NCBI RefSeq assembly: GCF_001507535.1
Contig: NZ_LQBN01000002.1
Span: forward strand, 434,001-498,000
Direction: 5' to 3'
DNA length: 64,000 bases
Source of the DNA: Thiomicrospira sp. WB1
GTDB taxonomy: Bacteria; Pseudomonadota; Gammaproteobacteria; Thiomicrospirales; Thiomicrospiraceae
In this document: positions 40,532-43,340 of the stretch, piece after piece
How positions within the stretch are numbered: position 1 is the stretch's first letter
Layout of the letters: each line of letters starts with the position of its first letter
The notes under the pieces: model-generated
The model's database searches: none
What the model was told of the DNA's origin: nothing
What the model saw: only the letters and a program-made list of their open reading frames with translations
Made by a program: the position numbers and the translations under genes

Positions 40532-41257
40532 ATTTTCCGGGGTGGCATTGTGAACCAACGTGCCTTCGTCCTCCCCCTGAACGATTCGGATCACGGCATC
40601 TTGCTTGAACATATCAAACACTCGAATCGGCATGCTGTGTTCACGACACAATACAAACGCCGTCATATCCATCACTTGCAGATTCTGCTCGATCACCTGC
40701 TCATAACTTAATTCGGAATAGCGAGCGGCACTGGGATTTTTAATGGGATCCGCATTGTAAATGCCATCCACTTTTGTTGCCTTGAGCACAATATCCGCAT
40801 CGATTTCAATACCGCGTAACGCCGCAGCGGTATCCGTGGTGAAAAAGGGGCTGCCTGTGCCCGCCGCAAAAATTGCAATATCGCCTTTGGCCAGTGATTT
40901 TTTGACGTGATTGGCATGAAAACCGTGCGAGACGCCCTCAATCGACATGGCAGAGTACACGACCGCGTGCATATCCATGTCCTCAATCACATCACGCAAG
41001 GCCAGTGCATTGATCACTGTGGCCATCATGCCCATTTGATCGCCTGTGGTGCGCTCGATCCCGGCCCCCTGAATCTGGGCCCCGCGAAAGATATTGCCAC
41101 CGCCCACAACCAGGCCGACTTCCACGCCCAAATCATGCAGTGTTTTCACCTCTGCCACCACATTACGCAGTGTCTCGGCATCCAGTCCAAAACTGTTCTG
41201 CCCCATCAGCGCTTCACCGCTGAACTTCAACAGTACCCGTGAATATTTCAGTGCCAT
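40514..41257 (-). CDS. pyrH: UMP kinase
   Basis: Phosphorylates UMP to UDP; a hexameric enzyme of the amino-acid-kinase fold. The 247-residue protein has LLKFSGEALMG, VGGGNIFRGAQI and the KATKVDGIYNADP segment. AAAGGG lies 7 nt before the ATG. The last five codons are duplicated downstream by a 21-bp tandem repeat. A long perfect inverted repeat precedes the gene. Confidence 0.97.
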   Translation of the reverse strand: MALKYSRVLLKFSGEALMGQNSFGLDAETLRNVVAEVKTLHDLGVEVGLVVGGGNIFRGAQIQGAGIERTTGDQMGMMATVINALALRDVIEDMDMHAVVYSAMSIEGVSHGFHANHVKKSLAKGDIAIFAAGTGSPFFTTDTAAALRGIEIDADIVLKATKVDGIYNADPIKNPSAARYSELSYEQVIEQNLQVMDMTAFVLCREHSMPIRVFDMFKQDAVIRIVQGEDEGTLVHNATPENHDDEQ

Positions 41258-41273
41258 GCTTATACCCTTTCAG

Positions 41274-41350
41274 CTTATTTCAAAACAGTGTTCACCGCCT
41301 TGGATGGATAAACAGTCATGCTAGCACACACCACTGTTTTGAAATAAGCG
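41274..41350 (-). promoter_or_regulatory. 18-bp perfect inverted repeat in the pyrH leader
   Basis: GCTTATTTCAAAACAGTG (41274-41291) is repeated inverted as CACTGTTTTGAAATAAGC (41333-41350), enclosing 41 nt. The stem ends 16 nt before the pyrH ATG and just before the ribosome-binding site. It could be an mRNA control element or a 77-bp miniature inverted-repeat element. No target duplication is visible. Confidence 0.75.
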
Positions 41351-41407
41351 CTGCCAACCTCAAAAACACACTTGAGCACAGCCGTCGTTATTCTAAGCAA
41401 TTCCTAC

Positions 41408-41444
41408 AAAAAAGGCCATGATAAACCGCGGCTTATCATGGCCT
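41408..41444 (-). terminator. Rho-independent terminator of rpsB-tsf
   Basis: AGGCCATGATAA (41413-41424) pairs with TTATCATGGCCT (41433-41444) in a 12-bp stem, and A6 at 41408-41413 gives a U-run on the minus-strand transcript, 24 nt after the tsf stop. Confidence 0.9.
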
Positions 41445-41467
41445 CATACGTCATACAAACGCAACGA

Positions 41468-42352
41468 TCAGGACTTAGCTGCTTCCGCTGCTGCGGCAAC
41501 CTCATCCGCAAAGTTCGTTTCTTCGATTTCGATGCCTTCGCCAACTTCAAGGCGCACAAAATCAGAAACCGACGCGTCGGCTGATTTCAACAGCTTCTCA
41601 ACCGTCTGATCCGGGTCTTTGACAAAGGCTTGCCCCATCAGAGTAATTTCCTGCAGGAACTTACGCATGCGCCCTTCAATCATCTTCTCAATGATCTCAG
41701 CCGGCTTACCGGATTCCTGAGCCTGCTCGATCTGGAACTGACGCTCTTTTTCTACCATGTCCGCATCAACGTCATCCGCTGACACCGCTGCCGGCTTGGA
41801 AGCTGCCACATGCATGGCCACGTCACGCAGCAGGTTTTCATCACCTCCTTCCATGGCAACCACTACGCCAATTTTCTCACCGTGCTGATACTGGCCGATC
41901 TGCCCAGTGGTTTCAATGACTTCGGTACGACGCACCGTCATGTTCTCACCAATACGACCCACCAGCTCACGACGACGCTCATCAATGGTCTGACCATTGT
42001 CCAGCTTTTCATTCATCAGCGCATCTACATCCGTGATACCGGTTTTCAGAATCACAGCGGCCACTTCATCCGCAAACCCTTTGAATTCATCGCCTTTGGC
42101 AACAAAATCGGTTTCACAGTTCACTTCCGCAATCGCTGCTTTCTTTTTGTCCTCGGAAATGGCGATGGCCACAACGCCTTCCGCTGCAGTGCGGCCCGCT
42201 TTCTTGTCGGCACCCGCCATGCCTTTTTTGCGCAAAAACTCAACCGCATCGTCCATATTGCCGTCGGTCTCACCTAGCGCTTTTTTACAATCCATCATGC
42301 CCGCGCCCGTCATTTCGCGCAGCTGTTTTACCATCGATGCTGTCACTGCCAT
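41468..42352 (-). CDS. tsf: Elongation factor Ts
   Basis: Nucleotide exchange factor for EF-Tu. The 294-residue protein has the N-terminal MTGAGMMDCKKALGE domain and the conserved NCETDFVAKGDEF core. It is second in rpsB-tsf and followed by a strong terminator. A palindrome copy lies in the short gap after rpsB. Confidence 0.98.
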   Translation of the reverse strand: MAVTASMVKQLREMTGAGMMDCKKALGETDGNMDDAVEFLRKKGMAGADKKAGRTAAEGVVAIAISEDKKKAAIAEVNCETDFVAKGDEFKGFADEVAAVILKTGITDVDALMNEKLDNGQTIDERRRELVGRIGENMTVRRTEVIETTGQIGQYQHGEKIGVVVAMEGGDENLLRDVAMHVAASKPAAVSADDVDADMVEKERQFQIEQAQESGKPAEIIEKMIEGRMRKFLQEITLMGQAFVKDPDQTVEKLLKSADASVSDFVRLEVGEGIEIEETNFADEVAAAAEAAKS

Positions 42353-43167: not shown

Positions 43168-43195
43168 GCTTTTCTCCAGTTTTGGGTTTTGCCTC

Positions 43196-43274
43196 CGCCT
43201 GCCCAGACCACGAACCGACAGTAAACCTCTCTTCGAAGCTTCCGTCGGCACCCCGTGGAATGTGTCGGCAGGCG
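43196..43274 (-). promoter_or_regulatory. Structured rpsB leader (candidate S2 autoregulatory RNA)
   Basis: Three nested pairings are visible: CGCCTGCC/GGCAGGCG (43196-43203 with 43267-43274), CCACG/CGTGG (43208-43212 with 43254-43258) and CCGAC/GTCGG (43215-43219 with 43244-43248). The element ends about 28 nt before the rpsB start. An S2-binding leader is known in gammaproteobacteria; identity here is inferred from position and structure. Confidence 0.65.
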
Positions 43275-43340
43275 TGTGGATTATTTGTTAAAATGCTTTT
43301 TTTCAGCCACCGGAAAGGTGATCTGTCAAAAAGCGACGCA

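Follow-up and report, generated by a model that had tools for sequence, protein, structure and literature searches.

What is a long perfect inverted repeat doing between the genes for elongation factor Ts and UMP kinase in Thiomicrospira sp. WB1? The repeat was noticed in a stretch of 64,000 nucleotides of this genome (64 kb, called the window below), and an earlier note on it offered two explanations: a leader stem that responds to pyrimidine supply, or a 77-bp MITE-like insertion. The junction is also a concrete place for studying read-through from a strong operon into a gene of another pathway.

The repeat and its surroundings

The two arms, at positions 41273-41290 (GCTTATTTCAAAACAGTG) and 41332-41349 (CACTGTTTTGAAATAAGC), are complementary at 18 of 18 positions and separated by a spacer of 41 nt, as the earlier note had described them, except that its limits of 41274-41350 were one base too high at either end. 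Its remark that the arms lie far beyond chance also held up: the window contains no longer perfect inverted repeat (gap 3-80), and dinucleotide shuffling of the whole window, repeated 60 times, never produced perfect arms of 14 nt or more. The repeat lies in the 251-base gap between two genes that I take to be tsf and pyrH, names that also fit the gene order of E. coli, and all three are read on the minus strand. In the sense of pyrH, the order is tsf, a terminator-like site, the repeat, AAAGGG, and pyrH (Table 1). The 3' arm ends 15 nt upstream of the pyrH ATG and abuts TGAAAGGG, adjoining the presumed ribosome-binding site, as had been claimed. When folded with 8-nt flanks, the WB1 hairpin segment is predicted to form 29 pairs. 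The pyrH most similar to that of WB1, in the records searched, comes from Hydrogenovibrio halophilus DSM 15072 (93% identity).

Table 1. Features at and around the inverted repeat, in coordinates of the window. Arm sequences are given in the sense of pyrH.
Feature	Position	Strand	Basis
pyrH (UMP kinase), 247 aa	40514..41257	-	open reading frame and protein match
Shine-Dalgarno-like AAAGGG of pyrH, shortly 3' of the stem	41265..41270	-	sequence
3' arm of the stem, CACTGTTTTGAAATAAGC	41273..41290	-	sequence
Apical region, 41 nt	41291..41331	-	further short helices predicted
Candidate extended -10, TGC TAGCAT, in the loop	41318..41323	-	consensus match
5' arm of the stem, GCTTATTTCAAAACAGTG	41332..41349	-	sequence
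Candidate -10, TAGAAT, shortly after the terminator	41390..41395	-	consensus match
Terminator-like site after tsf, upstream of the hairpin: 15-pair stem and T run	41412..41445	-	consensus scan
tsf (elongation factor Ts)	41468..42352	-	open reading frame
t44 RNA (rpsB leader)	43186..43296	-	Rfam, 54 bits (gathering threshold 44)

At the gathering threshold, the search of the window against Rfam returned t44 alone, which opens the rpsB-tsf stretch directed towards pyrH. With a low threshold, positions 41200-41500 gave no pyr leader or related-looking family; the sub-threshold hits were to the IhtA sRNA over the terminator and, on either strand of the repeat, to miRNA families. There is also an open frame of 14 codons on the minus strand (41275-41319), with its start in the loop and its stop in the 3' arm. 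A leader peptide was considered and set aside, as the WB1 frame was not seen, by eye, in H. halophilus.

A separate peculiarity of this DNA is the strong overrepresentation of a 12-bp palindrome, ACCAGGCCTGGT, of which the window holds nine copies (starting at 2828, 6456, 9292, 13806, 19101, 22634, 42397, 50733 and 54597), while AGGCCTGGT has 21 matches, against 0.37 expected. ACCAGGCCTGGT occurs 400 times in the genome of WB1, 515 times in G005, 660 times in G019 and 289 times in G013, and is absent from four congeneric species (G001, G004, G007 and G010). It is present in 16 of 32 genomes; the reversed control is absent from all of them except G041, which has three copies. Its abundance recalls that of HIP1 in cyanobacteria.

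The same place in related genomes

The order is represented by 62 genomes, three of which (G027, G064 and G066) have no usable pyrH start. The remaining 59 leaders, WB1 included, comprise 55 of the family outside genus g2 and four of that genus, which were counted apart; the pyrH loci L002-L014 were inspected among 63 and enter none of the counts. Stems were sought by a procedure in which G-U and A-C both count as mismatches and each leader is compared with 200 shuffles of itself; the seeds were not fixed, and counts may shift slightly on repetition.

A stem better than those of the shuffles was found in 41 of the 55 family leaders at p<0.05, and in 33 of the 55 at p<0.01. The "stem" of L089 is the tsf terminator itself, which makes 40 of 55 the fairer figure. 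The 14 family leaders without a significant stem (15 if L089 is counted with them) argue that the stem is dispensable. None of the four g2 leaders has a significant stem, and in that genus tsf abuts pyrH. Only one of 19 leaders taken at the level of the class (L138) has a significant stem, but these leaders make an imperfect control, because few have a located terminator T run (2 of 19, compared to 49 of the 55 family leaders) and some extend back into tsf. L138 itself contains a perfect 25-nt inverted repeat of unrelated-looking sequence, which stops about 10 nt short of pyrH.

Folding energy gives lower counts. Leaders for which at most 5 of 100 shuffles folded as well number 28 of 55 in the family, 1 of 19 at the level of the class and 0 of 4 in g2. 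The post-terminator leader of WB1 (z -1.45, p 0.09) is not among the 28; with the terminator included, its z value is -3.40.

The anatomy of the stems can be described from the 38 significant leaders in which the terminator T run was located. The left arm begins no more than 20 nt from the T run in 24 of them, a spacing into which no whole promoter would fit. At the other end, 14 to 68 nt (median 24) separate the right (3') arm from the start codon. Only three of the 38 have five or more T among the first 8 nt beyond the stem. The hairpins of 48 leaders, among them L089 and the near-duplicates L081 and L108, were folded with 8-nt flanks and are predicted to have from 9 to 32 pairs (median 23, quartiles 19.75-25). 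The stems are mostly rich in A-U, and their predicted pairing amounts to about two turns of double-stranded RNA.

Pairing kept while sequence changes

The pattern of substitution was examined in an alignment (A1) of 26 of the 30 leaders of genus g3, the Thiomicrorhabdus group. The other four (L076, L081, L108 and L112) were left out because no comparable stem was seen in them, an exclusion that favors the count of covariation; L113, misaligned in A1 and dropped from a later alignment (A3), is nonetheless counted. Over the 17 pairs of the stem, 88.8% of the cells in A1 are paired, as compared to 75.0% in shuffles. Thirteen of the 17 pairs have changed on both sides (8.1 in shuffles, sd 1.3), 37 additional kinds of pair occur (25.2, sd 2.1), and 66 cells are changed doubly (23.0, sd 4.4; no more than 17 when the register is slid). 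Not one of 500 shuffles attained any of the observed values. RNAalifold, applied to A1, recovered the stem unprompted, with compensatory changes in 10 of 14 pairs. What is kept of the sequence, according to the table of pairs in A1, is a core of UUU-NN-AA opposite UU-NN-AAA; no conserved loop was found in the 26 leaders.

Closer to WB1, the leader of H. halophilus is 68% identical over aligned positions, and of the 18 pairs in the stem, 13 are the same, three are kept after a change on one side, one is kept after a double change, and one is broken. In a comparison of 17 hand-picked pairs of related leaders, pairing survived a change at 31 stem positions (27 one-sided, 4 double) and was lost at 21. 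MAFFT with RNAalifold found no common structure in 10 Hydrogenovibrio leaders, the arms of which were not aligned.

Mispairs provide a means of distinguishing RNA from DNA. In 47 stems (omitting L108, as a near copy of L081, and leaders with no located T run, except L084), the positions that are not Watson-Crick consist of 42 G-U, 5 A-C and 43 others. The composition of the leaders predicts that about 28% of the G-U and A-C together should be A-C; in fact, 5 of 47 are (p=0.004). The disparity persists in stems scoring at least 9 (A-C 3 of 41, p=0.001) and is weaker in the 26 strongest, scoring at least 11 (20 G-U and 3 A-C, p=0.08). These p values are optimistic, since the sequences are related. 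That G-U is commoner than A-C indicates selection on the RNA of pyrH sense.

Selection on the stem at the level of RNA is supported by covariation, by RNAalifold and by the excess of G-U, all with statistics that ignore the tree. Judged by this comparison of sequences, the repeat in WB1 is one copy of an RNA hairpin kept between tsf and pyrH in most of the relatives examined while its sequence changes. The persistence of pairing through changes of sequence makes the hairpin look like a selected element of the mRNA, and the stem most likely acts as RNA on the strand of pyrH sense. The leader stem put forward in the earlier note gains support in so far as many relatives have a stem at this position, in which base changes are compensated.

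A covariance model (R1) was built from 25 g3 hairpins and used to search 60 genomes with strict filters, at E<=0.05. It matched 24 places in 22 of the 60 genomes. Twenty-one of these matches fall on pyrH leaders, in 19 genomes that all belonged to the training set (in two of the 19, both strands match). The three matches outside pyrH are in G013, G016 and G004, the best being G013:C1:201163-201221 (E 0.001), and no set of co-controlled genes was apparent in the 60 genomes. R1 missed the hairpin of WB1 and those of four searched training genomes (G031, G060, G074 and G075), which argues that there is too little common sequence for one model and that R1 is a weak instrument.

Readings of the hairpin and known counterparts

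That the repeat is a MITE or other mobile element, a view encouraged by its length and its look of terminal inverted repeats, has next to no chance of being right. The 77-bp element has a single match in the WB1 genome, and the 251-base gap has no DNA match at E<=0.001 in 54 other genomes, those of relatives, so the insertion supposed in the earlier note is rejected; in relatives, moreover, the stems found at the same place between tsf and pyrH differ in sequence. The arm by itself, with up to three mismatches allowed, occurs in the WB1 genome at the two places described here, at one with two mismatches and at one with three. A dyad that works in DNA, as an operator or as promoter architecture with a -10 element in the loop, is hard to credit as well. 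It would accord with the extended -10 candidate in the loop, which is common to WB1 and H. halophilus, and with TATAAT within the hairpins of L069, L072 and L073. These candidates are matches to the consensus alone, by a sigma-70 matrix, and a promoter scan of 41200-41500 found none. A promoter in the loop was rejected as a general rule, the matrix having put its top matches inconsistently. If the loop candidate were used in WB1, the transcript would lack the 5' arm, and no stem would be possible. A dyad in DNA is opposed by the drift of the arms with their pairing kept and by the strand-specific preponderance of G-U (42) over A-C (5), which symmetry in DNA does not predict.

The other -10 candidate, TAGAAT, found also in H. 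halophilus (L066) at -126, would place the hairpin inside the 5' UTR of pyrH if it were used; depending on the candidate promoter, the primary pyrH transcript could include the hairpin or leave it out. The hexamer in these two species lends itself to the idea of a hairpin that stays uncut in the 5' UTR, stabilizing or insulating the mRNA by hindering exonucleases or RNase E, with a promoter located on the tsf terminator or immediately beyond it, and the retention of pairing with no conserved loop would suit it too. I consider this unlikely, given that in 24 of 38 leaders a complete promoter would fit before the stem only by overlapping the terminator, and that some 23 pairs would presumably not be needed for the purpose. 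There is a very slim prospect that the stem is a second, weak intrinsic terminator in tandem with that of tsf: it lies close behind the first and has U-rich tails in L079, L114 and L122, but only 3 of 38 have at least 5 T in 8 nt, and stems are mostly A-U rich. The intrinsic terminator was rejected for the want of a U run, the stem of WB1 being adjoined by TGAAAGGG. Finally, the position directly upstream of a pyrimidine gene suggests a leader responsive to pyrimidines or to PyrH, through attenuation, autoregulation or the binding of a ligand to the RNA, and most matches to R1 do lie at pyrH, though in genomes that all served to train the model. I think this improbable to a high degree, and the response to pyrimidine supply proposed earlier finds no support: A1 shows no conserved loop, a U run follows 3 of 38 stems, Rfam returned no pyr leader, and in those 38 leaders the distance from the 3' arm to the start codon is never below 14 nt. 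In Streptococcus pneumoniae, admittedly a distant species, uridine had no effect on a pyrH-luc fusion (PMC6212727). Of the earlier reading, the leader stem is supported, the pyrimidine response finds no support here, and the MITE is rejected.

The reading I prefer, tentatively and with somewhat less than even confidence, is that of an RNA hairpin at the junction of the tsf terminator and pyrH that would be cut by RNase III in read-through RNA, or would insulate it, and in this way set the output of pyrH. The stem would form mainly in transcripts of the rpsB-tsf operon that pass the tsf terminator, where it would present about two helical turns of double-stranded RNA. RNase III would cut it, or the stem would at least insulate, and the mRNA of pyrH-frr would be separated from that of rpsB-tsf. 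The gene rnc is present in the WB1 genome. A bolder version, which I hold to be distinctly doubtful, makes the hairpin an element specific to the order (Hydrogenovibrio, Thiomicrorhabdus and kin) that ties the output of UMP kinase and frr to rpsB-tsf by regulated cleavage of the stem; the regulation might come, for example, from the activity of RNase III or from a protein binding the UUU-NN-AA core.

Long stems that process or insulate are already known, and the pyrH stem would add one more. Among the matches listed from the open-licence literature, none describes a pyrH leader stem for this group. What began as a single odd repeat appears as a covarying RNA element in a group of sulfur oxidizers, at the point where a translation operon meets the genes of a nucleotide kinase and of ribosome recycling.

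Three known systems invite comparison. Pyrimidine leaders of the pyrBI and pyrC type likewise have a hairpin before a pyrimidine gene. The leader of WB1 is unlike them in that its open frame was not seen in H. halophilus, in the rarity of U runs among the family stems, and in the position of the 3' arm, which ends before the Shine-Dalgarno region. The same junction in E. coli has a terminator after tsf and then further predicted hairpins before pyrH, two short ones in place of one long A-U-rich stem. Read-through is known there: long reads show transcription from rpsB-tsf continuing beyond the tsf terminator into pyrH-frr, along with pyrH-frr transcripts that start between tsf and pyrH (PMC6131387).

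The third system is the rpsO-pnp junction of E. coli and others, where one finds the same succession of a translation-related gene, a terminator, read-through, a long stem and a downstream gene. Cutting of that junction by RNase III destabilizes the pnp mRNA, according to PMC8708148, which also names the proximal, middle and distal boxes of RNase III. It is from the likeness of the pyrH stem to the pnp stem in position and size that I infer a processing or insulating stem in read-through RNA. The family has a pnp stem of its own: a strong stem of conserved sequence (CCTGAATC...GATTCAGG) precedes pnp in 13 of the 16 pnp leaders folded, including that of WB1 (L154, L158, L159, L161, L163-L169, L171 and L173). 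In L162, only the 3' arm falls in the folded piece, and L172 and L175 have no such stem. Possibly this is the site of autoregulation by RNase III known from E. coli. The two stems differ in what they conserve: that of pnp keeps its sequence across genera, whereas that of pyrH keeps its pairing more than its sequence.
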